From: Variovorax sp. PAMC26660
GTDB lineage: Bacteria > Pseudomonadota > Gammaproteobacteria > Burkholderiales > Burkholderiaceae_C
Direction: 5' to 3'
NCBI RefSeq assembly: GCF_014302995.1
Contig: NZ_CP060295.1
Span: 3,897,501 to 3,961,500, forward strand
Length of the DNA stretch: 64,000 nucleotides
The notes beneath the pieces are model-generated. The model had not been told where the DNA came from. It ran no database searches and saw nothing but the letters and a program-made list of their open reading frames with translations. Positions 11,616 through 36,683 of the stretch are shown piece after piece; positions within the stretch are counted from its first letter, which is position 1, and every line of letters begins with the position of its first letter. Position numbers and translations under genes: made by a program.

Positions 11616-14111
11616 TCACTTCTCCAGTGGGCGCAGCGCAACGCTGACGTGCTCCGCCGGCATCCCTTCACGGCTGCGGGCCGCGATTTGCCTGAACCCG
11701 TCTTCCAGGTGCCGCACGAAGCGCGGTGTGTCGAAGTAGCCCAGGCGCGCTTCCTTGGCTGCAATGAGCCGTGCACGCAGCGCGGCCAGTTCGTCCGGAT
11801 GCGTGGCGTAGTGGATGGCCTTCTGCACGTATTCCGCGTGGTTCGTGGCCACCAGTTCCGGCAGGCCGATGGCGCCCAGCAGGCTGCCCGCCATGCGCGA
11901 GACCATCGTCGAGCCTGCGAGCGCGAGCAGCGGCACGCCCGACCACAGCACGTCGTTCGCAGTGGCGCCGCTGCTGTAGGGGAAGGTGTCGATGAACAGG
12001 TCGGCTAGGCCGATGCGCGCCAGATGCTGGTCGACCGGCATGCGCGGCGACACGATCAGGCGCTCGGCCGCCAAGCCGGCCTTTTCCCAGTGCGCACGCA
12101 GGTTCTGCTCGAAGCCGTTCGGTCCTTGCGCCAGCCACAGCACGGAATTGGGAATGCCCTGCACGATGCGCACCCACGCATCGAAGGTCTCGGGCTGGAT
12201 CTTGAAGGACTGCGAGAAGTTGCACAGCACGAATGCGTCTTCCGGCAGACCGTGCCCGGCGCGTGTGGCCTTGTGCGGATTGACGGGCCGCTTCGTGTCG
12301 ATCACCTGGAAGGTCTCGGGCAGGCGCAGCAGTTTCTCGGTGTAGCAGTCTTCCGTGCCCGGCGGCGAGAGGAAGTTGTCCGACACCAGGTAGTCGTAGT
12401 TGGGTGTGCCGCTGGTGCCCATGTAGCCCAGCCACATGAGCTGCGCGGGCGCCGCGTGGTAGGCCATGACCTGCGGCTTGGCGCCGCGCGTGTCACCGGA
12501 GAGGTCGATCAGGATGTCGACTTCGTCCTCGCGGATGCGCTCGGCCATCTGCTGGATCGACTGGCCGTGCATGTCGACGAAATGCTCGACAGAACCCGCG
12601 ATGCGCGCGCGCGCCGGATGGCCGTCGTCGGAGCCGTAGGAGTACACGAAGACCTCGAAATCCTTGCGGTCGTGCAGGGCGAACAGCTCGGCGGTCAGGT
12701 GGGCGACCGGGTGGTTGCGGAAGTCGAAGGAGTAGTAGCCGACGCGGATGCGGGGCGAGGTGCGGCGTGCGCCGGCATCGGGGAAGGGCTTGATGTTCAC
12801 CGCCTTGTCGGTCAGCGCGGCCGAGTGCTCTGTCCAGGCCCTCAGTCGCCGTGGATCGTCGTAGTTCGACATCAGGATGAACGATGACACCGCCTGGGCT
12901 TTGTGCGGGTTGTCGAGGTTCGCGGCGATTCTCGCGCGCAATTCGGGCACGCCGTCCCAATTGGCGATGTGCGCCTTTTCACCCAGCAGCCACACCATGG
13001 CCGACATGAAATCCGGGTCGTCGCGCAGGCATTGCTCGAACTCTGCTATGGCCGCTTCCGATTGGCTGGCCATGATGTAGGTCACGCCAAGGTTGCAGCG
13101 CGCGAGCACCTGGCGCGGATGCAGCGCCAAGGTCTTCTTGAGGATTTCGATGGCCGAGTCGTACTGTCCCAGCCGGAAATTCGTCGTGCCGAGATTGTTC
13201 AGCAGCGCCTCGTGTTCCGGCAGGGATTCCAGGGCCAGCTTGTACAACTCGCCGGCCTCGGCGAAGCGCATCAAGACACCTTCGAGGGCGCCGCAAACGC
13301 CGTACAGCGCCGCCATGCCGTCGAATTCGGACAGCGCCCTGCCGCGTACTTCCGCGGAAGAATTGCGCATGGCCCGCTGCATCGGTGCAATGGCCTCCTC
13401 GTTGCGGCCGCAGCCGAGCAGCGCGCGGGCAAGCAGATAGGACGCCTCGAAGTCGGGTGGCTCGGTCTGGGCCTGTTCGAGCGAAGGCAGTGCTTCGGCC
13501 CAGTTTTTCTGGTGCGCGTGGATCTTGCCGATGTTCTTGTGTGCGACGACGTAGGTCGGGTCGAGCTTCAGCGCTTGCCGGAATTGGGCAATGGCTTCAT
13601 CGAAACGATCCTGTTCCATGTCGATCGCGCCTGCGTTGTTCCATGCTGCGGGCGCTTGCGGTGCGAGCCGCGTGGCCTCGCCGGCGGCCTCGCGCGCCAG
13701 CCGGTATTTCTTTTGTTGCCGGTAGACCGCCGACAGGTTGACGTAGGCCGCTGGGTAATTCGGCAACGCCTTGATCGCGCGCCGAAGGTCTTGTTGTGCT
13801 TCGGCCAGCAAGCCCATGTGCATGAATATCGTCGCGCGGGTATTGAAATAGAAGTGATGCGGAGATTGCGCAATGGCCCGGTTCACGTAGTTCAACCCCA
13901 GCTTCGGCCTGCCTTGCCGATAGAGGGCTTCGCCGGCCAGGTGCAGCGCGTCGGCATGCTCGGGGAAACTGGAGAGCAGGTCTTCGTAAATCTGCAATGC
14001 CTCTGCGAACCGACCAACCTGGTGCAACGACAGCCCCTGTTCCAGAAGGCGGGCGGCATCGCTGACGGTGGCGACGGGGGCGGGGGCGGGGGCGAGTGAA
14101 GGTGAGTTCAT
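11616..14111 (-). CDS. TPR / GT41 (OGT/SPINDLY-type) protein glycosyltransferase
   Basis: 831-aa cytoplasmic protein. The N-terminal half (about residues 20-400) is a superhelix of roughly ten tetratricopeptide repeats such as AEALQIYEDLLSSFPEHADALHLAGEA-type units. The C-terminal half (about 455-800) is a GT41 catalytic domain: VGYYSFDFRNHPVAHL with the OGT-type histidine, DILIDLSGDTRG, MWLGYMGTSG, the UDP-binding lysine in CNFSQSFKIQPETF, and IDTFPYSSGATANDVLWSG. Family members transfer GlcNAc, fucose or glucose to Ser/Thr or Asn of proteins. It lies 156 bp downstream of the Ser/Thr/Asn-rich adhesin gene on the same strand, though a terminator stands between them. The adhesin is an obvious candidate acceptor; this is inference. 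Confidence 0.93.
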   Translation of the reverse strand: MNSPSLAPAPAPVATVSDAARLLEQGLSLHQVGRFAEALQIYEDLLSSFPEHADALHLAGEALYRQGRPKLGLNYVNRAIAQSPHHFYFNTRATIFMHMGLLAEAQQDLRRAIKALPNYPAAYVNLSAVYRQQKKYRLAREAAGEATRLAPQAPAAWNNAGAIDMEQDRFDEAIAQFRQALKLDPTYVVAHKNIGKIHAHQKNWAEALPSLEQAQTEPPDFEASYLLARALLGCGRNEEAIAPMQRAMRNSSAEVRGRALSEFDGMAALYGVCGALEGVLMRFAEAGELYKLALESLPEHEALLNNLGTTNFRLGQYDSAIEILKKTLALHPRQVLARCNLGVTYIMASQSEAAIAEFEQCLRDDPDFMSAMVWLLGEKAHIANWDGVPELRARIAANLDNPHKAQAVSSFILMSNYDDPRRLRAWTEHSAALTDKAVNIKPFPDAGARRTSPRIRVGYYSFDFRNHPVAHLTAELFALHDRKDFEVFVYSYGSDDGHPARARIAGSVEHFVDMHGQSIQQMAERIREDEVDILIDLSGDTRGAKPQVMAYHAAPAQLMWLGYMGTSGTPNYDYLVSDNFLSPPGTEDCYTEKLLRLPETFQVIDTKRPVNPHKATRAGHGLPEDAFVLCNFSQSFKIQPETFDAWVRIVQGIPNSVLWLAQGPNGFEQNLRAHWEKAGLAAERLIVSPRMPVDQHLARIGLADLFIDTFPYSSGATANDVLWSGVPLLALAGSTMVSRMAGSLLGAIGLPELVATNHAEYVQKAIHYATHPDELAALRARLIAAKEARLGYFDTPRFVRHLEDGFRQIAARSREGMPAEHVSVALRPLEK

Positions 14112-22496: not shown

Positions 22497-23600
22497 ATGC
22501 GCGAATCGAAAACAGCCCTCGACCACGATGTCTACCTGAAGACCTCGTATTTCCCCGCCCTGGACGGGCTGCGGGCGATTTCGGTCTTTCTTGTTTTCGC
22601 GGTTCATTTCGGCGGAGAGATGTCGGGCACGCGGACCGGCTGGCTCGGTGTCTACGTTTTCTTCGTGCTCTCCGGCTTTCTGATCACGACGCTGTTGCTG
22701 CGCGAGTGGGACGCCACCGGTTTCGTATCGCTGAAGGCGTTCTATATCCGGCGCAGCACGCGGCTGATGCCTGTCTACTTTCTCGTGTACCTGCTGGTCA
22801 TGGTCCTGAGTTACTTCTCGCAGGGCCTGGCCTGGACCGAAATGAAGGCGGCGACGCCTTACATGCTCACTTTCCTGAACGAATTTGCCGGGCCATCGCC
22901 CTGGGCCATTACCTGGTCGCTGGGCGTGGAGTGGAAGTACTACCTGGTGTGGCCGTTGCTGTTCGCCCTGTTCGGGCGCACGTCGACCTCCCGCATGGGC
23001 CTTGCGCTGCTTTGCCTCGGAGTGACGGGCGTTCTTCTGGTCGGCAGCTTCTATCCCGCCTGGTTCACGCCGTGGTTCTATTTCGGGCTGATCCTGGGTT
23101 CGCTCATTGCCGTGGCCATGCATTCGCGGATCGTGTTCGACAGGCTTCGCGGCCTCATGACCAACAAGGCCGCATTCATCATCGCCTTCGTGCTGTTCGT
23201 CTGGTACAGGCGAGGCGCTCTTTTCGAGGCGCACCTCGGTCATGCGACGCTGATCGTGGTGTTCAGTTTGCTGATCGGACTGTTGATGCCGTCCCTCATC
23301 GTGAACAGCACCTACCTGAGCCGCGCGCTGGCATGGCGGCCGCTGGTGTTCATCGGCCAGCGTTCGTACGCCATGTACCTGATCCAGGTCATGGCAGTGC
23401 AGGCTGTGCTCTTCGTGTTCCCCGGCATGCTCTTCGGTCCGTTCCTGTTGTTCAGCGGCTTTGCCGTCGCGCTGCTGGTTGCCGATGTTTTCTATCGGTG
23501 GTTCGAGCGCCCGATCGCGCGTTGGGGCCATGGATGGGCCAAGGCAGTGAAGGACAGCGGCGATGGCGCCCAGCGCGCACCGGGCGTGAAACCCAGCTAG
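22497..23600 (+). CDS. Acyltransferase family 3 membrane protein (OafA-like)
   Basis: 367-aa polytopic inner-membrane acyltransferase (Acyl_transf_3). Such enzymes O-acetylate or otherwise acylate O-antigen, exopolysaccharide, peptidoglycan or lipids. Seen: the diagnostic ALDGLRAISVFLVFAVHF with the catalytic-type His near residue 39, GWLGVYVFFVLSGFLIT, the IRRSTRLMPVYF arginine motif, TWSLGVEWKYYLVWPL and about ten hydrophobic segments. No SGNH domain is fused. It starts 31 bp after the tRNA terminator and is convergent with the SWIM-protein gene (6 bp between stops). The acceptor is unknown and no glycan locus is adjacent. Confidence 0.9.
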   Translation: MRESKTALDHDVYLKTSYFPALDGLRAISVFLVFAVHFGGEMSGTRTGWLGVYVFFVLSGFLITTLLLREWDATGFVSLKAFYIRRSTRLMPVYFLVYLLVMVLSYFSQGLAWTEMKAATPYMLTFLNEFAGPSPWAITWSLGVEWKYYLVWPLLFALFGRTSTSRMGLALLCLGVTGVLLVGSFYPAWFTPWFYFGLILGSLIAVAMHSRIVFDRLRGLMTNKAAFIIAFVLFVWYRRGALFEAHLGHATLIVVFSLLIGLLMPSLIVNSTYLSRALAWRPLVFIGQRSYAMYLIQVMAVQAVLFVFPGMLFGPFLLFSGFAVALLVADVFYRWFERPIARWGHGWAKAVKDSGDGAQRAPGVKPS

Positions 23601-23606
23601 TTCCGG

Positions 23607-25763
23607 TCAAGGCTCGGCCGACTGCGCAACGCCCTGCATCAGCAGTCCCAACATCGCCAGTTGCGCCACCAGCGCCGGACGCTGTGCGGAGCGCATGTTT
23701 TCGAGCACGCCGCCCAGCAGCTTTGCGCTGTGACCCAGACCCGATTGCTTCAACCGCAGCACCTGCGCCTCGGCCCGTGACCATGCGCCGCCGCCCTGAT
23801 GGCGCAGGCCCTGGCGCAGCCAGAGCGCGAGCAGTTCGAGCGTGTCGCCGGCCAGCGCATTCAACGCAGGCACTTCCTCGGTGTCGCTCTGCAAATCCAG
23901 CGGCTGCGGCATCGGCGCTTCGGCCTGCAGCACCACGGCGCGCTGCGCCGTCAGCAGGCTCAACGGTTGCATGATCGCGCGACCGCCTTGCAGATGCACC
24001 GTGCCGGCCACGGCACGCAGGGCGCCCCATTCGCCTGCGAGCGCGCGTGCCAGTGCGTCGACGGCACCCGGTGAGACGGTGCGATGTGGCAGTGCGAGGT
24101 GCAGCAATCCATCGCTGCCGCTTTCATCCGCTGCCTGTGGCCCGTCCAGCGCCGCCTGCCCCAGCCTCGCGTGCAGCACCTGCGCCGCCGCATCCCAGTG
24201 GCAGGACGCCACCTCCATGCGATCGAAGGCCACCACATGCAGTTGCCCCGCTGCACCGGCCGACGCGCCACTCGCGGCCTGGCGCGGCCGCACGAAGTCC
24301 GGTGGCGCCTCGCGCAGATGCGCCACCAGCGCGGCCACGCTGTCCTGCCGCAGCGGCGCGACGAGGTCGTCCCATGATTTCGGCGACAGCGGCAGCACGC
24401 CGGTCTGGCGCGCGCCGGGGGCGATGTCGATCAGCCCGTTGGCGCGCCGCGTCGCGGTCTTGGTGATGACCTGCCCGCTCGCCAGTTGCCGCAGCGGAAA
24501 GCCCGCGACGCGGCGGCCGAGCAGGTTGGGCGCGGCGCCGCCGGTGGCGATGTCCGCCGCGCGCGACCACTGGCGTTCCAGCACCGTCACGTTCTGCGTG
24601 TCGGGGTCGGCAAAGAGAATGCTCGCCCCTTCGGCCGTGTCGTCGGACCAGAGTTCAGCGCCGAGCGACACCAGCCGCAGGTGGTCGAGCGCGACCTCTC
24701 CCTTCACGCCGATGCCCAGGATCTGGCTCGCCAGCAGCGCAGGCCGCGCCTGCGGGCGCTCGGCCTGCGCGGCCGCCTGAAGCCGGGCCCACAGCTCGGC
24801 CAGCACGCGCACCAGTCGCAAGGGCTCGAAGCGGCTGCTGCGCGCCTGTTGGGCCTGCAGCAGTTGCCAGAGTTCGTCGAGCGCGTCGTCGACCCAGTTC
24901 CAGGCCAGCGCGCGCGCCTGGTTGCGCACCGCCTCGAAGCGTGCCGCCAGCGCCATCAACGGCTGGCTCGATCCGTCGAGCCAGAGCGACAGCAGCAAGG
25001 CGTCGATCTGCGCGCGCAGCATGCGTGCGGCCTCGCCCTGCATCGCTTGCGGCGAAGAGTTGCCATCGGCCGCGTCGGCGCTGCCCGAGGCCGGCGACCG
25101 CACTTCGACCATGACCTCGGCCGAGCCCGGCAGCAACGCACCCGCCTGCCGGAAGGCCCAGAGCGCGATCACCACGTGCGCGCAGCCGCTGCCCTGCTTG
25201 CAGTCGCAGCGCGCATGCACGAGCGAACTGCGCGAGAAGAAGCGCACGCTGCACATCGGCAGCCGCGCCACCGGCGGTGCGCTGGCACTGCGCCACGCCT
25301 GCACGCCGACCACGGGCCGCGCCGCAGCGAACTTGTGGGCCTGTTCGAGCACGGAAGGCGCAAGGCTGGCTGCCAGCGCGGCATCGTCGAACTCGGCGGG
25401 ACTCCATGCACCGGCTGATTCCGTGGGCGCTTCGGTGTCGTCGGCCGATGGTGCCTGCGCGGTGGCCACGGAAGCCGCCTGCGCCTGATAAGCCAGCACC
25501 AGCATCACCCGGTGCCGGCACATGCCGCTCGCGGGGCAACTGCATTGCGCATCGCGCAGCGTGCGCCCGGGTGGCAGGCTGGTGCGCACGCCGTCGTCGA
25601 AGTGGGCCTGCACCACGCCGTCCGCGCCGGTCTCCAGCCGCGGCAGCAGGCCGGCCGCCACGTCCTTTTGCGCACGCTTGACGAAGCCCGCGTTGGCCAG
25701 CGCGGTCAACGCCTCTGGCGTCAGTTCGAGCAGGTCGGCGCGCAGTTCGGTCATCGCGCTCAT
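23607..25763 (-). CDS. SWIM zinc-finger protein (YehQ-like)
   Basis: 718-aa protein with two SWIM-type C-x-C-x(n)-C-x-H fingers, not one: Cys74/Cys76/Cys82/His84 (AQCSCPASGMCRHRVM) and Cys186/Cys188/Cys194/His196 (RCDCKQGSGCAHVVIA). SWIM fingers bind DNA or proteins. The remaining 500 residues are alpha-helical and Ala/Leu-rich, with no recognised enzyme motif. It is the last gene of the six-gene operon and starts on an ATGA overlap with the VWA gene. It resembles, by memory of domain layout, E. coli YehQ. The function is unknown. Confidence 0.85.
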   Translation of the reverse strand: MSAMTELRADLLELTPEALTALANAGFVKRAQKDVAAGLLPRLETGADGVVQAHFDDGVRTSLPPGRTLRDAQCSCPASGMCRHRVMLVLAYQAQAASVATAQAPSADDTEAPTESAGAWSPAEFDDAALAASLAPSVLEQAHKFAAARPVVGVQAWRSASAPPVARLPMCSVRFFSRSSLVHARCDCKQGSGCAHVVIALWAFRQAGALLPGSAEVMVEVRSPASGSADAADGNSSPQAMQGEAARMLRAQIDALLLSLWLDGSSQPLMALAARFEAVRNQARALAWNWVDDALDELWQLLQAQQARSSRFEPLRLVRVLAELWARLQAAAQAERPQARPALLASQILGIGVKGEVALDHLRLVSLGAELWSDDTAEGASILFADPDTQNVTVLERQWSRAADIATGGAAPNLLGRRVAGFPLRQLASGQVITKTATRRANGLIDIAPGARQTGVLPLSPKSWDDLVAPLRQDSVAALVAHLREAPPDFVRPRQAASGASAGAAGQLHVVAFDRMEVASCHWDAAAQVLHARLGQAALDGPQAADESGSDGLLHLALPHRTVSPGAVDALARALAGEWGALRAVAGTVHLQGGRAIMQPLSLLTAQRAVVLQAEAPMPQPLDLQSDTEEVPALNALAGDTLELLALWLRQGLRHQGGGAWSRAEAQVLRLKQSGLGHSAKLLGGVLENMRSAQRPALVAQLAMLGLLMQGVAQSAEP

Positions 25764-26884
25764 CCCTGCACCTTCTCGGCCAGCCAGCCCGCGAGCTGGC
25801 CCGGCGTCATCGCGCCGATCTGCGCGCCTTCGCGCACCAGCCGCGCGGCCATCTCGCGGTCAAAGGCCGGCTCGGCCTGCGCATCGAGCGCGGCCAGCCC
25901 GAGCACCTTGGCACCCGACTCGACCAGCGCCTTCACCCGCCGCACCAGCTCGTGTTCGCTGCCGCCTTCGTAGAAGTCGCTCACCAGCACCACGATGCTC
26001 TTGCGCGGATTGGCAATCAGCGACTGCGCATAGGCCACGGCCTTCGCGATGTCGGTCCCGCCGCCCAGTTGCACCTTCATCAGCAGCTCGACCGGATCGG
26101 ACACATCGGATGTGAGGTCGACCACCGCCGTGTCGAAGGCCACCAGCCGCGTGCGCATGCCGGGCAACTGCCACAGGCACGCAGCCATCACCGCGCTGTG
26201 GATCACCGAGTCGACCATCGAGCCGCTCTGGTCGATCAGCAGGATGATGTCCCACGGCTCGGCGTGCCGCTTGGTGCGGCTGATGAACACCGGCCGCTCC
26301 ACATAGAGCTTGCGGCGTTCCGGGTCGTAGCGGTGCAGGTTGGCGGCCAGCGTCTGCTTGAAGTCGAAGTTGCGCGCGATCTTCATGCGCGATCGGCGGC
26401 GCCGGTCGCGGCTGCCGCTGAAGGCCTGCCGCACTTCGGTGGCCAGCTTTTCCATGATGCGGCGCACCACCTCGGCCACCAGCTTGCGCGCGGCCGCGAG
26501 CACCTGCGGGTTCATCAGGTGCTTGGTGTGCAGCACCGCGCGCAGCAGCGATTCGGAAGGCTCGATGCGCTCCAGCACTTCGAGGTTGGTCACCACCTCG
26601 TCGATGCCGTAGCGCTCGACCGCGTCCTGCTCCAGCCGCTCGATCACTTCCTTCGGAAAGAGCGAGTGGATGGTGTTGATCCAGTCCGGCGTGCTGAGCG
26701 CCGACGGGCCGAGGCCCGCGCTGCGTTCGCCGCGGCTGGCGCGGTCGCTGTCGCGGCCGTAGAGCCAGTCGAGCGCGGCGTCGGCCGCCTTGGCCTCGGC
26801 GCTCAGGCCGCCGCAGCACGCTTCGGCCGGATCGCCCAGCAGCAGGCGCCAGCGTTGCAGCGGATCGGGAATGTCCAGGCTCAT
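25760..26884 (-). CDS. VWA-domain protein partner of MoxR ATPase (YehP-like)
   Basis: 374-aa cytoplasmic protein without signal peptide or membrane segment. The N-terminal ~200 residues are helical. The C-terminal von Willebrand A domain (about 210-370) has an intact metal-ion-dependent adhesion site: Asp218-x-Ser220-x-Ser222 in DQSGSM, Thr277 in GGGTDI, and Asp303 in SDFYEGG. In RavA-ViaA and CbbQ-CbbO such proteins are the substrate adaptors of MoxR ATPases, and the MoxR gene lies two genes upstream. It overlaps both the DUF5682-type gene and the SWIM gene by 4 bp. Confidence 0.92.
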   Translation of the reverse strand: MSLDIPDPLQRWRLLLGDPAEACCGGLSAEAKAADAALDWLYGRDSDRASRGERSAGLGPSALSTPDWINTIHSLFPKEVIERLEQDAVERYGIDEVVTNLEVLERIEPSESLLRAVLHTKHLMNPQVLAAARKLVAEVVRRIMEKLATEVRQAFSGSRDRRRRSRMKIARNFDFKQTLAANLHRYDPERRKLYVERPVFISRTKRHAEPWDIILLIDQSGSMVDSVIHSAVMAACLWQLPGMRTRLVAFDTAVVDLTSDVSDPVELLMKVQLGGGTDIAKAVAYAQSLIANPRKSIVVLVSDFYEGGSEHELVRRVKALVESGAKVLGLAALDAQAEPAFDREMAARLVREGAQIGAMTPGQLAGWLAEKVQG

Positions 26885-29331
26885 GGGCGGGGGCTTCCGT
26901 CGAAGTCCTTGTCGTTGTTGTCGAGCGTGACGCCCCAGGCCGCGAGGCGCGCGAGCACGGCGTCTTCCACCATGCGCGCCTGCGCCAGCGCTTCCGGCGC
27001 GGCCTCGCCGGAGTGCGTGGCCGTGAGCGCGCGGCGCGACAGATGAGCGGCGTCGTGCAGCTTCAGCACCTGCTCGGCCAGCAATCCGCGCTCTTGCGGC
27101 GGCAGCCAGGCAAAGGCGGCGCGCAGGCTGGGCATGGCGCGCACGAAGTCGGCGTTGTCCAGCGCCTGCACCGTGCGGTCCATGCCGGCGACGAAGGCCG
27201 GTTCGGACGACAGCGTTTCGCGTGCCAGCGCGAGCAGGCCGGTGAGCGCATCGCCGAGCACCGGCGCAGGCAGCGAATGCAGCAGTTGCATCGCTTCATT
27301 CACGCCGGCATCGTGCGGCTGCGCGTGTGCAGCCCGCCCCGCCAGGCTCAGCGTGGCGCCCAGCGCGGCGCCACGGCTCACGGGCGCGGCGCTGGCATCG
27401 GCCGCCTTGCGCTGCCAGACCGCGAGCGCGCGCGCCGGCTCCACGTCGAGCAGCTTCGGTGCGTCGGCGTCGTGCGATGTGTCGGCCGCATGGGCCAGCA
27501 CGTCGGCCACGATCCGCCGCAGCGCGAGGTGGCCCTGCAGATGCGCGTCCATGTCGGCTGGCGTGACGGCGGCGGGCGGCTCCAGCAGCCACAGCGCGCG
27601 GTCGAAGCCCGACTCGATCACCACGCGCAGCACCGGCGCATCGGCCATGCCCAGCATCTGGCCGTGGCGCAGCAGCGTATGCAGCACCGACAAGGCCGGG
27701 CCCAGCGCCTCGAAGCGCGGCTCGTTGGCGATGGCGCCCTGCAGCTCGCCCAGCAGCGAATCGCTGAGCGCCGACAGCCCCGCCCACGCGGCCTGGTTGA
27801 GCCCATCGGCCAACGGACCGATGCGGCCCTGTGCCTGGCGCAGATCGTCTTCGAGCCGGGCCCGCGCCGCGTCATGCAGGCTCGCGCCCCAGGCGCCGGC
27901 CTCGATCAGCGCGGCCTGCTGCTCCAGCGGCTCGGCCAGCGACCAGACTTCGGTGCGTTCGCCCGACATTGCCAGCTTCGGCCCTTGCGTGCGTCGCACG
28001 CCGGGCAGTCGCAGGATCGACAGCCGGTGCAGCACGCGGCTCTTCGCGCGGTCGGCGTCGGCCAGCAGGTCGATCTTGAGCTGGCCGCGCAGCACGATGC
28101 CGTGCGCAGCGAGTTCGGCCGCCACCGCAGCCACCAGCGGCGGCTGCGGCGTGCCGGGCGCGAGGCGGCCGACGGTGTCGCCGGCCAGCACATCCATGGC
28201 CTGCACCAGCACCGGGTCGGTGCCGGGGCGGATCGCGCCGCGGTAGGTCCAGGGCAGCGGCGCATCGAGCGCGTCTTTTACCAGCGCGCCGGCCAGCGCG
28301 TCGAGCCAGTCGGAGCGCAGCGGCTTCTCGTGACCGCGCAAACGCGCGAGGCCTTGCGCACGCAGATGCACGGCCATTAGGTCGGCGGTGGAGGCGGGCA
28401 GTTTCTTGTCGCGCAGCCGTTGCATCACGTGCTGCAGCGCGCGATGTGCGGCGCCTTCGGGGCCGTGCTCCCAGACCCACTGGTAGTAGGCGGGGGAGGG
28501 CATGCCCGAGGCATAACCGGCGAAGGCATCGAGGCGCTTGAATGTGTACGGCACGAGGTAGGAGCCGAAGCGCAGCGGCGCATCGGCTCTGTCGTCCTGG
28601 CCTCCTTCATTGCAGGGTTCGAGCGATGGCTCTGGGGTTGCGGGCAGCTCGGCCGGCAGGCCCTGCCAGAGCCGCGCCAGCGCAGGCGCGTGGTAGCCGC
28701 CGCACACCACCAGCACCTGCGCGCGGCCGGGCTCAACCGGCTGCGCCATCGCCCAGGCGATCCAGCGCGCCATCATCTGTTCGCGCGCCTGGTTGCCCAG
28801 CGAGCCGGGGTCTTCGCCGCGCAAATGATCGAAGTAGGTGGCCAGGCGCTGCGCCAGCTCGGCCGCATCGCAGCCGTCCTCGAACAGGTGGTCCCACAGT
28901 GCATCGCGGCCCTGCACCGAGAGCTTCTCGGTCAGCGCGCGTTCGTAGGCTTCGGCGCGTTCTTCATGCTGCGCATCGGCCACGTCGGCGTATCGGTTCT
29001 CCATGCGCGAGAAGGCGTCGTGCCACGCAGGCAGGTCGATGAAGCGCACCTGCGCGCCGACTTCGCGCGCCACCTGCAGCGCCTGCCATTCGGGCGAGTG
29101 CTCGGCAAAGGGCGACCACGAGCCGCGATGCGTTTCGTCGCCCGAGAGGTAGCTGTAGATCGCCACCGGCAACTGGTGCGGCAGGTACAGCTCGGCCAGT
29201 CGTTCGTTGAAATCGGCTGGCCCTTCGATCAGCACATGCGCGGGGCGCAGGGTGCGGATGCGCTCGGCGACCAGCCGCGCGCAGGCAGGGCTGTGGTGAC
29301 GCACGCCGACGATGTGGGGCTGCTGTGTCAT
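26881..29331 (-). CDS. DUF5682-type protein, possible EreA/ChaN-like enzyme
   Basis: 816-aa cytoplasmic protein. The N-terminal ~230 residues show VGVRHHSPAC (Arg11, His12, His13), VLIEGPADF (Glu36), FIDLPAWHDA (Asp99), REQMMARWIAWA (Arg183-Glu184) and VVCGGYHAPAL (His214). This H...E...R(E/D)xxMA...GxxH order recalls the erythromycin-esterase/ChaN/TIKI superfamily, so a hydrolase-like site is plausible; this is inference. The rest is helical, with many Ala/Leu repeats. The ATG at 29331, 10 bp after the MoxR stop, is preferred; a GTG at 29376 is an alternative. It overlaps the VWA gene by 4 bp. E. coli YehM is, from memory, a homologue. Confidence 0.85.
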   Translation of the reverse strand: MTQQPHIVGVRHHSPACARLVAERIRTLRPAHVLIEGPADFNERLAELYLPHQLPVAIYSYLSGDETHRGSWSPFAEHSPEWQALQVAREVGAQVRFIDLPAWHDAFSRMENRYADVADAQHEERAEAYERALTEKLSVQGRDALWDHLFEDGCDAAELAQRLATYFDHLRGEDPGSLGNQAREQMMARWIAWAMAQPVEPGRAQVLVVCGGYHAPALARLWQGLPAELPATPEPSLEPCNEGGQDDRADAPLRFGSYLVPYTFKRLDAFAGYASGMPSPAYYQWVWEHGPEGAAHRALQHVMQRLRDKKLPASTADLMAVHLRAQGLARLRGHEKPLRSDWLDALAGALVKDALDAPLPWTYRGAIRPGTDPVLVQAMDVLAGDTVGRLAPGTPQPPLVAAVAAELAAHGIVLRGQLKIDLLADADRAKSRVLHRLSILRLPGVRRTQGPKLAMSGERTEVWSLAEPLEQQAALIEAGAWGASLHDAARARLEDDLRQAQGRIGPLADGLNQAAWAGLSALSDSLLGELQGAIANEPRFEALGPALSVLHTLLRHGQMLGMADAPVLRVVIESGFDRALWLLEPPAAVTPADMDAHLQGHLALRRIVADVLAHAADTSHDADAPKLLDVEPARALAVWQRKAADASAAPVSRGAALGATLSLAGRAAHAQPHDAGVNEAMQLLHSLPAPVLGDALTGLLALARETLSSEPAFVAGMDRTVQALDNADFVRAMPSLRAAFAWLPPQERGLLAEQVLKLHDAAHLSRRALTATHSGEAAPEALAQARMVEDAVLARLAAWGVTLDNNDKDFDGSPRP

Positions 29332-29341
29332 TGCCGCGCGC

Positions 29342-30490
29342 TCAGGGAAGACGATGCCGCGCCTCGTAGTACGCACGCCAGTGCGCGCCGTTGCGCTTGG
29401 CGGCCTTCTGCTCGAAGTAGCGGCGCAGCTTGGCGCGATCGTCCGCGTTGTCTTTCACCACCGTGCCCGCGATGCAATCGACCAGATCGGCCGGCGAGCC
29501 CTCGCGCTGTTCGAGGAACCACGCGCGCACGCCGACCGCATGCGCCACGTTCACCGCTTCGGCGGTCGACATCACGGCCGTGAGCCGGTCCATCGCTGCG
29601 TCGCCACCATTGCCGTTCCCGCCTTCCTTGGCCGGCGCGCCGCGCAGGTCGCGGAAGGTCGACACCAGCAGTTCCAGCACCGGCGCGGGAATGGTCTTCG
29701 GAATGCCGCTCTGTGCCAGAAGGCGCGCGGACGACTCCTGCACCAGCGCCAGTTCGCGGTCGAAGTCGAGGATGGGGAACACGGTCTCGAAATCGAAGCG
29801 GCGCTTGAGCGCCGCGCTCATCTCGTTCACGCCACGGTCGCGCGTGTTGGCGGTGGCGATGATGTTGAAGCCCTCGCGCGCATAGAGCATGCCGTGCTCG
29901 CCCGACAGCTCGGGCACCGCCATCACGCGGTCCGACAGCATGCCGAGCAGGCAGTCCTGCACTTCGAGCGGCGCGCGCGTGATTTCCTCGAAGCGCACCA
30001 CCTGGCCCTTCTGCATGCCCAGGTAGAGCGGCGCCGGCACCATCGCGCGCGGGCTCGGCCCTTCGTTGATGAGCAGCGCGTAGTTCCAGCCGTACTTGAT
30101 CTGGTCTTCGGTGATCGATGCGCCGCCCTGGATGGTGAGCGTCGAGATGCCCGAGATGGCGGTGGCCAGCAGCTCCGACAGCATCGACTTCGCCGTGCCC
30201 GGCTCGCCCACCAGCATCAGCCCGCGTCCGGTGGCCAGCGTGACCAGCATGCGTTCGATGCTGGCCACGGGCGCGACGATCTTGGGCGCGATGTCGAGCG
30301 ACGCATCTCCGAGGATGAAGGCGCGGGCGGCTTTCAGCCCCAGCACCCAGCCGGGCGGGCGCGGGTCCTTGTCCTGCGCCTGCAAGCGCGCGAGCTGCGC
30401 GGCGTACTGGATCTCGGCCGGCGGGCGTTGCAACTGCGTTGGCGTTTGCGGCGCACCGGTGTCTTTGGAGCTTTTGCTGGATGTGGCCAT
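29342..30490 (-). CDS. MoxR-family AAA+ ATPase (YehL-like)
   Basis: 382-aa MoxR ATPase, a ring-forming chaperone-like AAA+ protein. Seen: Walker A GEPGTAKS (residues 95-102), Walker B VVRFEEI (164-170), sensor 1 Asn215 in ATANT, arginine-finger pair Arg230-Arg231 in LKRRFDF, and the helical lid beyond residue 250 with a Gly/Asn-rich insert (EGGNGNGG). The start at 30490 is chosen because the preceding frame is antisense-type shadow. It lies 17 bp after the small secreted-protein gene. MoxR proteins act with VWA partners, here encoded two genes downstream, to remodel or insert cofactors into client proteins. The client is unknown. Confidence 0.94.
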   Translation of the reverse strand: MATSSKSSKDTGAPQTPTQLQRPPAEIQYAAQLARLQAQDKDPRPPGWVLGLKAARAFILGDASLDIAPKIVAPVASIERMLVTLATGRGLMLVGEPGTAKSMLSELLATAISGISTLTIQGGASITEDQIKYGWNYALLINEGPSPRAMVPAPLYLGMQKGQVVRFEEITRAPLEVQDCLLGMLSDRVMAVPELSGEHGMLYAREGFNIIATANTRDRGVNEMSAALKRRFDFETVFPILDFDRELALVQESSARLLAQSGIPKTIPAPVLELLVSTFRDLRGAPAKEGGNGNGGDAAMDRLTAVMSTAEAVNVAHAVGVRAWFLEQREGSPADLVDCIAGTVVKDNADDRAKLRRYFEQKAAKRNGAHWRAYYEARHRLP

Positions 30491-30507
30491 GGTGGATGCT
30501 GATGAAA

Positions 30508-30945
30508 CTAGAGGAGCTTGTACTCGCCGGGCTTGCCGGTCTCGATGGTGATGTCCGAGCTGTCCTGCGAATAGGTGTGAGTGGCGCGCAGCCGGATGCG
30601 CCCGCCCTGGAAGGTCTCGCGCCGGTTGCCGGCTTCGAGGACGTTCATGCCACCCGAGAGCTCCTTCACGAGCACGCGCGCCACCCGCCGTGGCGCACCG
30701 CGTTCGCCGACCGTCAGCCATTCGATCCACAGCCGTGAATGCACATGCGAGAACCCCGTGTCGGCGATCACCACGCGAAGCACGCCGCTGCCCTTCGGCG
30801 AGGTCCACTCGCCGCCGGTGGCCACAGTGGTCACGCGCGGCGAGACCTCGGGCGCGTTGCCTTCGGCCGCTGTTGCTGCTGTGGCCGCCAAGGCCGTGGC
30901 CGCGATGGCCAGGCCCGCCGCCAGCATCCACGCGCGCCGCTTCAT
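30508..30945 (-). CDS. Small secreted protein of unknown function within the MoxR operon
   Basis: 145-aa protein with a clear signal peptide (MKRRAWMLAAGLAIAATALA, cleavage predicted after ATAA or AAE near residue 28). The mature ~117 residues are rich in Val, Arg and Thr with alternating hydrophobic residues (RLWIEWLTVGE, IRLRATHTYSQDSSDITIE), suggesting a beta-sandwich. There are no cysteines. It starts on an ATGA overlap with the giant WGR gene and ends 17 bp before the MoxR gene, so it is firmly part of the operon. I do not recognise the family. It is the only exported product of the module, which makes it a candidate client or sensor. Confidence 0.8.
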   Translation of the reverse strand: MKRRAWMLAAGLAIAATALAATAATAAEGNAPEVSPRVTTVATGGEWTSPKGSGVLRVVIADTGFSHVHSRLWIEWLTVGERGAPRRVARVLVKELSGGMNVLEAGNRRETFQGGRIRLRATHTYSQDSSDITIETGKPGEYKLL

Positions 30946-33900
30946 GCCCGCAGCCCTTCCATGTCGCGGATCAGTTCGCTCGCCGAGATCGGGTCGAGCA
31001 GGTGCAGTGCTTCGGCATCGCGCATGTCGCCCCAGCCCGAGGGCTGGCCGACCTGCACCTGGCCCAGCGTCTGCTCGGGATATTCGTCCACCATGCCGAC
31101 GATGATGCCGGGGTCCAGGCTCAGCTCGATCACGCGGTTCGTGCCCAGCGGCTTGCTGAAGTACCAGATGCAGCCGGCGTCTTGCGCCTGGCCGCGGCGC
31201 CAGCCCTTGTTGGCCAGGCCCAGCACGCGACCGGTGGGCACCTTCACGTCTTTCCAGCGCTCGAGCTTCAAGCTCTTCTTTTCTTCGTCGGTCAGCGTGT
31301 AGATGTCGCGGCCGATCTGGGCGAAGGGCTGCAGCAGCTCGTAGTCGGCGAACACCTGGCCGAAGGCGGCGGCATCGGCGGGCGACAGGTCCAGCGCATG
31401 CGGCACGCCGATGCGGATGTTGTCGCCCGTAGGCAATTCGAAGGGGTCGTCTTCGGCCGTGGTGTAGCTGCCGTCCTCCGCCACGCGGAAGCATGCCTGC
31501 AGCGTGCCGCCGTAGCTGTTGTCGCCCTCCACCGCGTACACCCCCCAGATCAGCCGCTGCACGATGTGGCGCACCAGCGGATGCTCGACCAGGAAAAGGC
31601 GAAACACCTCGGGCGTCCAGCGCCGGCGTGCGCACATCGCCACTTCGAGGCGCAGCAGTTGCTGGCTCGCGATGGTGCGTGCGTCCTTCTTGAGCAGCTT
31701 GAAGCGCTCGACCGCTTCCTTGCCCAGTGCGTCGTCGTCGGTCTTCTTGGGCTTGGGCAGGTCGGGCAGCCGCGCGCCATCGACGCCACCGGTGCTCTCG
31801 CGCACATAGGGCTTGAGCGCTTCGTCGAACCCGACCTTGAAGGCGCGCGGGCCGAAGTCCAGCAGCATCGTGCCCTGCTCGTCGAGGCCGAGGTCGGGTG
31901 CGAGCCGGTCTTCGAGTTCCTCGGTGCTCAGGCCGCGCGCCTCGGCGATGGCGTCGATCTTCTCGCGCGCCTTGTCCTGCAGGCCCTTGAACTTGACCTT
32001 CTGCGCGATGCCGTTGAGCAGCATCAGCGCGACGTCGCTGCCGATGGTGGCCAGCACGTCGAGCCCGGTCACGGCGCGCGCATGCGCAGCCTCGCCGGGC
32101 CAGGCGCGAATGAAGGGTGTGAGCTTGCGCGCCGTGTCGTCGTTGCCGAACAGGCCCAGCGAGGTGAGCGCCCAGCCTTCCTTGCTCGGCCCGCTGGCTT
32201 CGAGCCAGGCGGTGAAGGCGTCCCATGCGAACTCGGCCAGCGAGTCGGCGTCGCAGGCCTCCTTGACCACGGGGATGCCACCGTAGATGCCTTCGGTGGT
32301 CGGAAAGGTCAGCATCTGGCCGAAGTGGTCGAGCGCATCGTCGGGCAGCGCCTTGCCGTTCCTGAGCGTCGGGCGGCGCCAGCCGCGCGGTTGCCAGAAC
32401 TCGGGCAGCTTGGCGCGCTTGGTGGGAAAGCGGTCGAGCGGGCTTTCGTCGAGCACGGCGCGCAGCGCCTGCACCACCTCGGGCTGGCGGTAGCGGCCGG
32501 CCACTTCGAGCAGCAGCGCCTCGTGGCCGTTGGCCTGCAGGAGGCGCAACGCCGAGCCCGCGCAGTCGCGTGCCTCGCCGGCCTTGCCGAGCGCAGGCGC
32601 GATCAGGCCGCAGGCGGCGTGCTCGGGATACTTCAGCAGCCATTCGCGGCCGGCGGCGCGCAAGGTCTTGAGCTTGGCGAAGGCGCGGGCGGCCGGCATG
32701 GCCAGGTCGGGCGTGCCGTAGTTGAGCGCGTACGACAGGTTCTCGGAGGGTTTCGACCGCACCATCGCAATCAGGCCCGGCATCACGGCCTGGCCGTGCG
32801 TGGCGAGCACCATGCCGATGTCGTCGCTTTCCGCCTCGCTCGCAATCGCGTTCCAGAACGGCACGCCGACTGCAGCCGGCAGCAGCGTGACGAAGCTCGA
32901 TGTGAAGCAGAACCAGTTGTAGCGCTCCTTCTTGCGCTCGACCACCATGGCGCGCCAGTTGGCGATCAGCCCCTGCGCATCGCCGTCGCGGATCGCGGCT
33001 TCGGCCGCCTTGGCGAGCGGGCCGTGTGATTTTTGCTTCTTGATGTCGAAGCCCAGTTCATCGAGCAGCACCGCCATGTTCTGGCGCGCCGATGCATGGC
33101 GATTCATTTGCCACGAGTTCAGGCGCAACGCCTTCTCGCGTTCGCCTTCGTTCCACTGTTCAGCCGTAGCCAGCGCAAGCGGTTCCAGCACCAGCGTGGC
33201 GGCGGCTTTCTTCTGCACTTTGGCAAGCCACGGTGGCGCGGCCAGCACGGGCGGCAGTTCGTCGGCATCGGCCACTTCGGCGGGGCCGGACAGCAGCGCG
33301 AGTTGCCGGTCGATGGCGGCCTGCGCGCCAGCATCCAGCCAGGGCCGCAGCGCGGGCAGCAGGGCTGCGCTGTGCGCGCGCAGCAGGCGCGTGAGGCTGG
33401 GCGTGACGAGGTTGGCGTCCTTGCCGCCAGCCGCGACCAGCCGTGACAGCGCGGCGATGGCCGCCGCCGGCCAGCGGTCGACCGACAGCGCAAGCCGCGC
33501 CAGCGCGCCCTTCGATTGGCTCGCCACGCGGGCCAGCGCCTGCACCGCCTCGGGCGTGCCGATGCATGCGAGCGCGTCGCCCGCGTCGTCGTTGGCGGCG
33601 CCGCGCTCCAGCACGGGCACGGCCTCGGTGCCGCGCTCCTGCACCAGCGTGCTCGTCATGTGGCTGTCGCCCCAGAAGCCGCTGGAATAGCTGAGCTTGA
33701 CCTTGGCGGCCAGCGCGATGGCGGCCAGGTCGGTGGCCGTCAGCAGCAGCCAGTGCGTGGTTTCGGGCGTGCCCTTTTCGGCTGCGAGCGCATGCACCAT
33801 CGCGTTCGAGATCTCGGGGGCGTCGGGCAGCATCAGGGCCAGCGTGGGTTGGCGGCTGGGGTGCACGCCGGGCAACGCGGCTTCGATCTTGTCGCGGCAG

Positions 33901-35102
33901 GCTTGCCAGACCTCGGGCTCGGCGGCGGCCAGGTGCGCGCGCAGCGCTTGCTCGCCTTGCCCCAGCGGGCCGTAGTAGCTGTTGCCCATGGCGCGGCTCA
34001 CCGCGCTGCCGAAACTGCTGCGGCGGACCTGGGCTTGCCGGTCGTAGTCGGTCTGGACCTGGATCTGCTGCGCCGACAGCAGGATGTCGATGGCACCCGG
34101 CAGTCCGTATTGCGCCACCAGGTAGTTCGCCACCATTTCGCCGGGCTCGTTCTCGCCGTAGTGGCCGCCGGTGCTCAGCGCCAATGCCATCAGCACGGTG
34201 TCGGACTCGGCATCGGCAGAGGGCTCGCGCAGCGCCACGCGATCGAGCATGCGTTGCACCGCAGGCTGCAGGGCCGCATCGCTGTTGCCGACATCGACCT
34301 TCGGATCGAGCTGGCGGCGCACCAGCTGCCAGGTGGCGGCCGCACCCGTGCTTGCAGCAGGCTTCGGAGGGAAGCGGCGCGAGGGAAAGGCCTGGCGCAG
34401 CATCTCGGGCGAGAGCCGCACGGGCGCACCGCTGGCAAGCCACGGCGGCGTGTCGGCGCTGACGGGCATCTCGGCGCCGATGGATGCTTCCGCGGCTGCG
34501 TTCGGTGCGGTTGCACCCAGTTCCTTCGCAAGCGCCTGCGCGTTCTTGACGGGCGTGCAACTGGTGCCCCAGCCGTCCAGCAGGCCCTGTGCCTTGAGCC
34601 GCTTGAACGCCAGCGCGGCGCCTTGCTCGCTCACGCCATGCTGGCGCTTGAGCATGCCGGGCGACAAGGTGTCCTTGGTCGTGAGTTCGCCCGCTTCCAT
34701 CTTTGCGCGCACGGCTTCGAACACGCGGTCGGCCTGGCTGTCGATGCTTTCGGTGGAGGGCGCTGCGGCTTCCTGCGCGGGCGCGCTGGCGTCGGCCGCT
34801 GCCGTGGATTCCGCCGCTGCCGGCGAGGCTGTTTTTTCGGCGGTGGCTTCGGCCTTCGGCTTGGCCTCGGTCTTGCCGATGGCCGCGCCGGTGGCCACGC
34901 CGACTTCGCCGTAGCCCTTGCCGGTCTTCTCGGCGGCGAGCTTGGTCAGCGCGGCATCGGCCTTGGTGGCGTCGGCGAAAGACTTGGTCTGGCTCTGGCC
35001 TGCGGTGCCGATGCGGCCCCAGCGGATGTTGAGGTCGGAGCCGACCTGTTCCACTTCCCAGAATTTGCTGGCGGTTCCTTCGATCAGTTCAAAACGGCGC
35101 AT
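30942..35102 (-). CDS. WGR-domain / DUF4132 giant protein (MolR/YehF-like)
   Basis: 1386-aa cytoplasmic protein, first gene of the operon. Seen: an N-terminal WGR domain (residues 1-70, NIRWGRIGTAGQ), a Lys/Ala/Pro/Glu low-complexity linker (70-118), a winged-helix-like segment (119-186, TLSPGMLKRQHGVSEQGAAL then FKRLKAQGLLDG), a long helical HEAT-like middle (DALACIGTPEAVQALARVA), and a C-terminal DUF4132 region (about 1120-1300, RLEVAMCARRRWTPEVFRLF and HPLVRHIVQRLIWGVYAVEG). WGR domains of PARPs sense nucleic-acid or phosphate ends; DUF4132 has no known function. AGGAGG lies 10 bp before the start. Its stop overlaps the next start (ATGA). E. coli MolR/YehF and YehI have related parts, from memory. 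Confidence 0.88.
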   Translation of the reverse strand: MRRFELIEGTASKFWEVEQVGSDLNIRWGRIGTAGQSQTKSFADATKADAALTKLAAEKTGKGYGEVGVATGAAIGKTEAKPKAEATAEKTASPAAAESTAAADASAPAQEAAAPSTESIDSQADRVFEAVRAKMEAGELTTKDTLSPGMLKRQHGVSEQGAALAFKRLKAQGLLDGWGTSCTPVKNAQALAKELGATAPNAAAEASIGAEMPVSADTPPWLASGAPVRLSPEMLRQAFPSRRFPPKPAASTGAAATWQLVRRQLDPKVDVGNSDAALQPAVQRMLDRVALREPSADAESDTVLMALALSTGGHYGENEPGEMVANYLVAQYGLPGAIDILLSAQQIQVQTDYDRQAQVRRSSFGSAVSRAMGNSYYGPLGQGEQALRAHLAAAEPEVWQACRDKIEAALPGVHPSRQPTLALMLPDAPEISNAMVHALAAEKGTPETTHWLLLTATDLAAIALAAKVKLSYSSGFWGDSHMTSTLVQERGTEAVPVLERGAANDDAGDALACIGTPEAVQALARVASQSKGALARLALSVDRWPAAAIAALSRLVAAGGKDANLVTPSLTRLLRAHSAALLPALRPWLDAGAQAAIDRQLALLSGPAEVADADELPPVLAAPPWLAKVQKKAAATLVLEPLALATAEQWNEGEREKALRLNSWQMNRHASARQNMAVLLDELGFDIKKQKSHGPLAKAAEAAIRDGDAQGLIANWRAMVVERKKERYNWFCFTSSFVTLLPAAVGVPFWNAIASEAESDDIGMVLATHGQAVMPGLIAMVRSKPSENLSYALNYGTPDLAMPAARAFAKLKTLRAAGREWLLKYPEHAACGLIAPALGKAGEARDCAGSALRLLQANGHEALLLEVAGRYRQPEVVQALRAVLDESPLDRFPTKRAKLPEFWQPRGWRRPTLRNGKALPDDALDHFGQMLTFPTTEGIYGGIPVVKEACDADSLAEFAWDAFTAWLEASGPSKEGWALTSLGLFGNDDTARKLTPFIRAWPGEAAHARAVTGLDVLATIGSDVALMLLNGIAQKVKFKGLQDKAREKIDAIAEARGLSTEELEDRLAPDLGLDEQGTMLLDFGPRAFKVGFDEALKPYVRESTGGVDGARLPDLPKPKKTDDDALGKEAVERFKLLKKDARTIASQQLLRLEVAMCARRRWTPEVFRLFLVEHPLVRHIVQRLIWGVYAVEGDNSYGGTLQACFRVAEDGSYTTAEDDPFELPTGDNIRIGVPHALDLSPADAAAFGQVFADYELLQPFAQIGRDIYTLTDEEKKSLKLERWKDVKVPTGRVLGLANKGWRRGQAQDAGCIWYFSKPLGTNRVIELSLDPGIIVGMVDEYPEQTLGQVQVGQPSGWGDMRDAEALHLLDPISASELIRDMEGLRA

Positions 35103-35399
35103 GGAAAAACGTCCTCCTGTGAATCGACGACGCGCCCTGTCGGCGCTGAATGTGGCGGATGAATCGGGGCGATGGCGGCGGTCTGGACATCTGCCGGTCG
35201 GCATGCGCGATGGGGCTCAACCACGCATCTGTGCATGCCGTGTTCGCGACCGAGGATAAAGGCCCGATGTGAAAGCCCGACCCGTCAGCAACGTGACGGT
35301 CGGGCGCTCGATGGTGCGTAAAAAACAGGCAGTAGAAAAGAAGGAAATCTCATGCCTGAATCATGCACCGTGCCTCATGCGGCGGCAGGTACGAAAAAT
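35103..35399. other. Intergenic region with WGR-operon promoter and a GGDEF-gene hairpin
   Basis: 297 bp separating two minus-strand transcription units. A strong hairpin at 35275-35305 (GCCCGACCCGTCA against TGACGGTCGGGC, one bulge, 6-nt loop) is followed on the minus strand only by TTTC, a weak terminator for the diguanylate cyclase gene. No convincing promoter hexamers for the WGR operon could be picked by eye, although its ribosome-binding site is excellent. Confidence 0.5.
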
Positions 35400-36539
35400 T
35401 CATTCATGCAGTTCGCCGGCGAACGCATAGGCCGGGCCCATGCGTTGTTGCTCGCAGTGGCGCAGTGCGCGGTCGGCGGCCTGCACGATGCTTTCAAGCG
35501 TGTCGCCGTCGACCGGGTGGCTGGCAATGCCGAAGTTCAGTTCGCCGCCCGCGAGCAGCCGGCCATCGTGCTCGACCGGCCGGGCGCCGGCGGTCAGCAT
35601 GCGTATCGCCATCTCCGCGAGCTTGTGCCGCGCCGGTGTGCCGACCAGCAGGATCGCGAACTCGTCGCCACCGAGCCGGGCCACCATGTCGTCCGCGCGC
35701 ACCTGCTGGCGCAGGCGCCGGGCCATGGCGGCCAGCACCGCATCGCCGCCTGCGCGTCCATGCCGTTCGTTCACGCGGCTGAAGCCGTTCAGGTCGGCCA
35801 GCATCAGCGAGAACGGCCGGCCTTCGCGCAACCAGTCGCGGCCGCGGCTCTCGAAGCCGGCGCGGCTGGTGGCGCCGGTGAGCGCGTCGGTGCCCAGGTC
35901 TTCCACCTTTTGCTGCGTGCGAGCTTCGAGCGCCCGATCGGCGCGCAGGCGCACGCCGATGGCGATGACGAACACCATCAGCTCCGCAATCACGGCGGCC
36001 TGCGCGAAGTTCATGCGGCGGGGTGCCCAGGCCGGGTCCAGCCAGATCGACATCGGGGTGGCCGAGATGCCGCCGATCAGCAGCGCCGCGCCGGCCAGGA
36101 ACAACGCCGCCGGCCAAGGCAGGCGGCGCAGCACCATCACCGCGCCCACTGCAAGGATCACCGTGGAGGCCACTGCCAGTGCCTGCACCGTGCGCAGCGT
36201 CCACACGAGCTGTGTTTCGAGGGCGGCATAAAGCACGGCGATCGCGAAGAGGACCAGCGTGGCCTGCGCGACCCGGTCCAGGCGCGGCGCGAAATCCTTC
36301 AGCCGCAGCAGGTGCCGCCCGAACTGAAGCCGGCAGACCGTCCACAGCACCAGCGCCGCCGCCGGCCAATGGGCGGATGGGCCGCGCGGCGCCAGGCCGT
36401 TCAAGCCGGCAAAGGCGACCAGTGCACAGGCACAGGCCAACGCGTAATAACCGTGGATGACGCTGCCGAACACCAGCAGCAATACCAGACCGCACACCAT
36501 GAGGCCCGCCAGCAGGCCATAGCTCGCGCCATCGATCAT
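35400..36539 (-). CDS. Membrane diguanylate cyclase (GGDEF)
   Basis: 379-aa protein that would make cyclic di-GMP at the inner membrane. Seen: seven hydrophobic segments in residues 1-198, an MASE-like sensor module of unknown ligand, then a GGDEF domain with intact active site GGDEF at residues 290-294, the metal/substrate segment ADLNGFSRVNERHG, and the inhibitory I-site RxxD at Arg281-Asp284. It therefore looks catalytically active and product-inhibited. No EAL domain is present. The ATG at 36539 is used; a TTG six bases upstream is possible. It stands alone between two other transcription units. Confidence 0.93.
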   Translation of the reverse strand: MIDGASYGLLAGLMVCGLVLLLVFGSVIHGYYALACACALVAFAGLNGLAPRGPSAHWPAAALVLWTVCRLQFGRHLLRLKDFAPRLDRVAQATLVLFAIAVLYAALETQLVWTLRTVQALAVASTVILAVGAVMVLRRLPWPAALFLAGAALLIGGISATPMSIWLDPAWAPRRMNFAQAAVIAELMVFVIAIGVRLRADRALEARTQQKVEDLGTDALTGATSRAGFESRGRDWLREGRPFSLMLADLNGFSRVNERHGRAGGDAVLAAMARRLRQQVRADDMVARLGGDEFAILLVGTPARHKLAEMAIRMLTAGARPVEHDGRLLAGGELNFGIASHPVDGDTLESIVQAADRALRHCEQQRMGPAYAFAGELHE

Positions 36540-36683
36540 GGGCAAGCGCCGGTGGAGGAGGGGGAGCGGTGACAGGAAGGCATCCGGGCGTCTCGAAGTT
36601 TTTCTTTTGACAGGTTGGGTAACCGATCGTATCTCCGAAGCCCCGGGGGCGCGTGTCCCCTAAGTCACGCGCCTTTGCGCAGG

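Follow-up and report, generated by a model that had tools for sequence, protein, structure and literature searches.

What is the six-gene cluster on the minus strand of this stretch of Variovorax sp. PAMC26660 DNA, and what might its products do together? The window, that is, the whole 64-kb stretch analysed (contig NZ_CP060295.1), comes from a genome of 7.39 Mb in one contig, and positions 23607–35102 of its minus strand hold six intact open genes in the order WGR/DUF4132 protein, small protein, MoxR, DUF5682, VWA, and SWIM. Because the gene order and the BLASTP identities agree, the locus is near certain to be the orthologous yeh operon (molR/yehI-yehL-yehM-yehP-yehQ) of Variovorax, where we take molR to be yehF/yehH of Escherichia coli. 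A preliminary description, made from the DNA letters without database searches, had placed all six open genes correctly and had suspected a relation to the yeh genes, which is in fact that of an orthologous operon. The second question we answer tentatively and with less than even confidence: MoxR and VWA may form a remodelling machine that includes a TraB/ChaN-type enzyme, is directed to its targets by DUF4132 proteins, and serves genotoxic stress.

In E. coli K-12, the genes run yehF-yehH-yehI-yehK-yehL-yehM-yehP-yehQ, and the families of the window follow in matching order. The MoxR AAA+ ATPase (29342..30490, 382 aa; like all features given below, on the minus strand) falls in the YehL subfamily, with 72% identity to YehL over 370 residues. 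The VWA protein (25760..26884, 374 aa) is 69% identical to YehP, the DUF5682 protein (26881..29331, 816 aa; Pfam E 3e-98) 46% to YehM, and the SWIM zinc-finger protein (23607..25763, 718 aa; Pfam SWIM, E 3e-6) 35% to YehQ. The WGR/DUF4132 protein (30942..35102, 1386 aa), ortholog of molR/yehI by Pfam and BLASTP, shares 31% identity with YehI and, in its WGR region, 53% with YehF over 66 residues. Pfam places MoxR in AAA_5 (E 6e-33) and the VWA protein in VWA_CoxE (PF05762, E 5e-61, 206 bits); none of the six operon proteins reached the cut-off of an NCBIfam model.

The preliminary description had also called the central motifs intact, and Walker A and B, the MIDAS, and two CxCx5CxH fingers are indeed present in the window. 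Among MoxR copies longer than 330 aa, Walker A is found in 82/82 and Walker B in 81/82. In the alignment of SWIM copies, the three Cys and the His of finger 1 (C74-H84, 25512..25544) are invariant in 39/39 aligned sequences, and 39 of 69 copies have finger 2 (C186-H196, 25176..25208); all 30 that lack it are from Actinomycetota.

How firmly do these genes belong together? A species-genome collection was scanned with a three-sequence MoxR alignment, and the best 80 of at least 534 relatives were taken, all fetched through moxR; 68 of these loci, the full-flank set, extend for roughly 9 kb or more to both sides of moxR. All five families occur in 61 of the 68 (DUF4132 in 66, DUF5682 in 65, VWA and SWIM in 64 each), a co-location beyond chance, as the preliminary description had supposed. 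The SWIM genes of L079 and L083 were recognised by Pfam only. The exceptions are L032 and L034, without recognisable DUF5682; L066, without DUF4132; L051, without VWA and SWIM; and L082, with MoxR alone; L042 and L055 are also scored as lacking VWA and SWIM, though their available sequence stops inside a DUF4132 gene. In L034 (Kitasatospora), a 618-aa frame without a Pfam match (11310-13166) fills the DUF5682 place between MoxR and VWA.

MoxR, DUF5682, VWA, and SWIM keep their order and strand across Pseudomonadota and Actinomycetota, and the genes overlap at 44 of 58 measurable DUF5682-VWA junctions and 44 of 60 VWA-SWIM junctions (with starts chosen by script). Other genes are sometimes inserted among these four, either DUF4132 or the extra genes of L017, L020, and L051. 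The four thus form a nearly fixed block; copy number and position of the WGR/DUF4132 gene differ between loci. The extra gene of L017 (13505-14272), between DUF5682 and VWA, has a DUF4231/SLATT_3 match at E ~0.05, below cut-offs, and by eye a membrane-like N-terminus; that of L051 (11074-13587), directly after MoxR, encodes a 2OG-Fe(II) oxygenase-domain protein.

One might still suppose that the functions are separate, MoxR and VWA forming one chaperone pair and the other genes being bystanders that shared regulation holds in place. DUF4132 genes do exist without the operon, L032 and L034 do without a recognisable DUF5682, and the type B operon described below has no DUF4132. Such an arrangement is quite improbable, however, given that the core four stay together across two phyla and that their overlaps recur as often as just stated.

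Since the loci had been picked through moxR, an independent draw of 200 Pseudomonadota genomes was made, the same draw serving both DUF5682 (found in 10) and DUF4132 (found in 8). By score, the 12 DUF5682 places separate into two distant groups, five above 700 bits and seven at 328-371 bits, the latter being the yeh type. DUF4132 is present in 7/7 genomes with yeh-type DUF5682 versus 1/193 others (Fisher 3.5e-12, uncorrected for relatedness), and lies within 15 kb in six of the seven; in the seventh (G391, a draft of ~200 contigs), it is on another contig. Among 150 Burkholderiales genomes, DUF5682 and DUF4132 occur in six each, and all three yeh-type places are near DUF4132.

For the DUF5682 protein, an active site can be predicted. 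Its N-terminal domain (~residues 1-230, 28642..29331) carries the pattern G9xxH12, E36, R183xxxM187, and G211xxH214, and in 55 sequences H12, E36, R183, M187, G211, and H214 are invariant, with G9 kept in at least 90%; in a wider set of 75, GxRHHSP is found in 64, EGP in 71, and GGxH in 72. Comparison with TraB and ChaN alignments shows that DUF5682 has the GxxH-E-RxxxM-GxxH motifs in the order known from the TraB/ChaN (Cofac_haem_bdg)/erythromycin esterase superfamily, with RxxxM as in TraB; in ChaN, by contrast, the place of the Arg varies and none is invariant. DUF5682 further differs from the superfamily in having some 580 additional residues and in matching its sequence profiles weakly. 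Profile-profile comparison (using 19/20 TraB, 17/19 ChaN, and 8/8 EreA loci) gave probabilities of 19.6% with ChaN, 6.1% with EreA, and 2.9% with TraB, each score being reached by 0/50 decoys; the benchmark pairs gave 53% (TraB-ChaN), 10.4% (ChaN-EreA), and 0.25% (TraB-EreA). The structural model has a mean pLDDT of 89.5. Foldseek alone found no DUF5682 match at E 0.001, and the TraB and ChaN profiles did not pick up the Tetrahymena chain by sequence. By its motif pattern, which bears out the early guess of an EreA/ChaN-like protein, the first domain of DUF5682 is a probable enzyme domain of TraB/ChaN type.

The WGR/DUF4132 protein is the variable component. Its WGR domain (residues 7-67, 34902..35084; PF05406, E 2e-16) belongs to a family that binds DNA in PARPs, and its DUF4132 domain (residues 1109-1301, 31200..31778; PF13569, E 1.9e-48) lies near the C-terminus. 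Residues 215-1386 are modelled, at a mean pLDDT of 91, as a long helical solenoid followed by a C-terminal alpha/beta domain; a structure search with the solenoid returned generic HEAT-type matches only. Across 52 aligned sequences, some H, R, D, Y, and Q residues in the last domain of the protein never vary and may mark a binding or active site. Full-flank loci with DUF4132 carry one to five such open frames, pieces of broken genes counted, and of 116 frames, 100 stand before MoxR, six between DUF5682 and VWA, four after SWIM, and six elsewhere. The Variovorax genome itself has a second DUF4132 gene, a 1014-aa open frame (G000:C1:2414290-2414853), distant from both DUF5682 genes.

The condition under which such an operon would act is suggested by work on other bacteria. 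Directly before E. coli yehF lies aactggataaaattacaggg, which we take to be the LexA box of molR; in a scored search, its score was reached by 5/500 shuffles of its gap. molR is listed among LexA-regulated E. coli genes (PMC11039860, PMC4576408), and in wild-type Deinococcus, but not without IrrE, mitomycin C raises DRA0166, a DUF4132 protein, and DR2173, a WGR protein (PMC8533742). Members of the variable family are therefore induced by DNA damage in two unrelated regulons. A molR1 lepA double mutant grows slowly (PMC4245954), so that the early statement that no function is established was nearly right, except that the first E. coli gene has published phenotypes.

On these grounds we infer how a machine for genotoxic stress might work. 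MoxR would form an AAA+ ring and carry out remodelling together with the VWA protein, by analogy with RavA-ViaA (PMC3893208); DUF5682 would contribute the TraB/ChaN/EreA-type enzyme domain on a helical scaffold, and the SWIM protein would bind nucleic acid or protein in a zinc-dependent manner. The exchangeable part that recognises targets would be the DUF4132 proteins, long helical solenoids of which half carry WGR. Produced on DNA damage, the machine would recognise damaged or foreign DNA, or proteins on such DNA, and remodel or hydrolyse the bound component. The complex, its substrate, and its ATPase and hydrolase activities are all predictions. Taken further, the operon could stand for a novel kind of machine, driven by ATP and directed at conflict or DNA damage, in which a MoxR-VWA remodeller deploys a TraB/ChaN-superfamily hydrolase and WGR/DUF4132 solenoids are fast-turnover, exchangeable recognition subunits, with a sister class in which DUF5691 would take over recognition; we consider this extension unlikely.

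Several observations weigh against the genotoxic-stress machine and should be kept in mind. WGR is present in 50/101 DUF4132 proteins longer than 900 aa and absent from the other half, and DUF4132 occurs without yeh-type DUF5682 in 3/147 Burkholderiales and 1/193 Pseudomonadota genomes. The profile probabilities for DUF5682 (2.9-19.6%) are low beside the 53% of the known pair TraB-ChaN, and in a comparison that included some wrong-strand sequences, an unrelated MoxR profile scored about as high as TraB and 1/60 decoys passed EreA. The phenotype first reported for molR has to do with molybdate and not with DNA. No perfect LexA box (CTGT-N8-ACAG) is found in the window, and the best site of the scored search before its operon was matched by 343/500 shuffles, the E. 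coli control being detected. Three exact LexA patterns gave no site before any first gene in 83 mapped loci, though such patterns would miss weak boxes like the E. coli one and some loci end short of the operon front; a 20-mer search with three mismatches also missed the E. coli box. LexA control of the window operon was accordingly rejected, as the scored search with its E. coli positive control found nothing unusual. In L025 (Massilia atriviolacea, 427-2543), the operon starts ~1.5 kb from lexA, with an opposite-strand frame between them, and the two perfect LexA boxes of that locus are both in front of lexA itself.

Could the operon instead encode a maturation chaperone for a metalloenzyme? 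A CoxD/CoxE-like MoxR-VWA pair would then insert or rearrange a metal cofactor, which by the early molR reports would be molybdenum, and DUF5682 and SWIM would deal with metal or substrate. The VWA domain is of the CoxE type, as noted above; Pfam lists ChaN, which is related to DUF5682, under the name Cofac_haem_bdg; and molR was reportedly named, by Lee in 1990, for molybdate use. Against this, among 139 neighbouring open reading frames (ORFs; of 142 selected, length-chosen and some surely not genes), the 25 Pfam families shown of 104 include no molybdenum enzyme or cofactor gene, and the widest neighbour cluster spans 8/81 loci, all Streptomyces, or 5/81 across lineages. Moreover, moeA and moeB are unchanged on DdrO depletion in Deinococcus (PMC8533742). 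We judge this explanation unlikely. The preliminary description had spoken of stress, conflict, or metal: stress has gained outside support from molR/LexA and Deinococcus DdrO, with no LexA-like box at the window, conflict has little, and metal draws on the molybdate report and the CoxE-type VWA domain.

The distribution of the operon bears on the idea of conflict, an anti-phage or anti-plasmid system in which DUF4132 would be the variable sensor and DUF5682 the effector, in parallel with the ternary MoxR-vWA systems that Kaur et al. (2020) describe. A nearly constant core with a variable, multi-copy component speaks for it, and occurrence is patchy: among 81 Variovorax genomes, DUF5682 is found in 33, the yeh type in 23 (three in pieces), type B in 14, and both in four. 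Nine of the ten Variovorax loci in the best-80 set have the operon after recJ and a GGDEF gene; in L015, the remaining one, the 5.6 kb upstream of the operon contains neither. SWIM is closely followed by sspB and tRNA-Thr in the window and in 5/10 Variovorax loci; in four others, these two are not found within ~4 kb. In ten Variovorax genomes that lack yeh-type DUF5682, recJ is present, but 17.7 kb of sequence shows no relative of the operon's GGDEF gene. In four of the ten, recJ and tRNA-Thr are 1.8-5.3 kb apart, separated by genes that include those for a methyltransferase, a BTAD/AAA_16 protein, and short-chain dehydrogenases; in six, the tRNA is outside the examined stretch. The site between recJ and tRNA-Thr is therefore variable in part of the genus. 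A tree of 66 loci conflicts with organism relationships (Stenotrophomonas falls among beta-proteobacteria and Burkholderiales split into distant clades), which suggests horizontal transfer. MoxR relatives at E 1e-60 occur in 31 of 72,556 plasmid records, several of them chromosome-sized, and the 77-kb mobilizable plasmid pl1 of Iodobacter fluviatilis (L144) carries all five families adjoining a type I restriction-modification system; its SWIM annotation is split into a short gene and, after it, a second one that overlaps it.

In E. coli, genes of the operon are often broken: in six of ten strains inspected (10/20 of a spread list), DUF4132, yehL, yehM, or yehQ is annotated as such. Part of molR and yehI to yehQ are missing from the genome-reduced strain DGF-298 (PMC10652928) and are therefore dispensable in the laboratory, and transposon TnMB1860 is inserted in the metG/DUF4132/yeh region of one ST131 sublineage (PMC9334617). 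The yeh operon is an accessory five-family module that has apparently spread horizontally. A conflict system is nevertheless rather unlikely, as at least 80% of yehK-yehQ is present in 5162/5426 E. coli genomes, which is wide for defence, PADLOC 2023 matches 0/6 proteins at E 0.1, and MoxR scores 15.9 bits against a bpMoxR cut-off of 27 for the ternary systems. Seven defence families occur among the 139 neighbours, with at most two members each, and the Pfam families shown are mostly metabolic. These PADLOC and Pfam tallies, the latter from the 25 families shown of 104, indicate neither a defence-island context nor a molybdenum one.

The same Variovorax genome holds a second, type B operon (L004:6833-14803; G000:C1, ~1.997-2.005 Mb), adjoining an Hsp90 gene, in the order SWIM-DUF5691-MoxR-DUF5682-VWA. 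Four families are common to both (identities of 38% for MoxR, 38% for VWA, and 27% for DUF5682), but DUF5691 replaces WGR/DUF4132 and the SWIM gene comes first. Neither DUF5682 nor DUF5691 is mentioned in the literature searched, although the module is carried by most E. coli and by various Actinomycetota and Pseudomonadota. What the genotoxic-stress reading predicts is an active site in DUF5682, a core of four proteins, recognition through a variable component, and, first among the conditions for its action, DNA damage.

Within the window, the junctions are as first described, three of them ATGA overlaps and two of them gaps (17 and 10 bases), and the count of tight junctions rises from four to all five. 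Consensus scans found no promoter at the operon front or inside 23480-30960, and the latter interval has four terminator-like sites, near the shuffle mean of 2.8; since no internal promoter was found and the terminator-like sites are near that mean, co-transcription of the six genes is likely. Downstream, 7 bases separate the SWIM stop from the end of a convergent acyltransferase gene. The GGDEF gene (35400-36545), which has a 7TMR-DISM region, precedes the operon on the same strand, and between it and the operon a GC-rich hairpin followed by a short T run (35262..35312; fold -23.9 kcal/mol, z -3.0) is a possible terminator, uncalled by the terminator scan.

The small protein (30508..30945, 145 aa, no Pfam family), with a signal-peptide-like start by eye, had been described as an exported member of the operon. 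Its gene is present in 3/83 mapped loci (the window, L005, and L017), and its relatives number 17 proteins, the window's own included, among 5.8 billion. It was thus rejected as a conserved member, and this exported-looking protein is best read as a later, local, lineage-specific addition outside the conserved module.

How does the operon compare with known systems? CbbQ-CbbO is a MoxR-VWA remodelling pair, and the pairing first seen in the window is borne out; like it and CoxD-CoxE, the window has a MoxR protein and a CoxE-type VWA domain but, in contrast to them, no client enzyme gene was found to be conserved beside it. RavA-ViaA, also a MoxR-VWA remodelling pair, likewise has both proteins in one operon, but the window MoxR belongs to YehL, a named MoxR subfamily of its own (PMC3893208), and three further families are present here; Pfam at E 0.1 gave AAA-type families only, and no RavA-specific domain, in the window MoxR. 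The MoxR-vWA-VMAP ternary conflict systems (Kaur et al. 2020) share a MoxR-vWA core with a variable component, but Pfam found no VMAP or effector-associated domain in the six proteins, and a term search of the main text of that paper found no YehL, DUF5682, or DUF4132. The E. coli yeh operon differs in having a LexA-like box before its first gene, where none was found at the window operon, in having YehK at the position that the exported-looking protein occupies, and in its number of DUF4132 genes, with two in seven of the ten strains and at least three in three, some broken, against a single WGR/DUF4132 gene in the window. The families themselves, and their order DUF4132-MoxR-DUF5682-VWA-SWIM, are the same in both.

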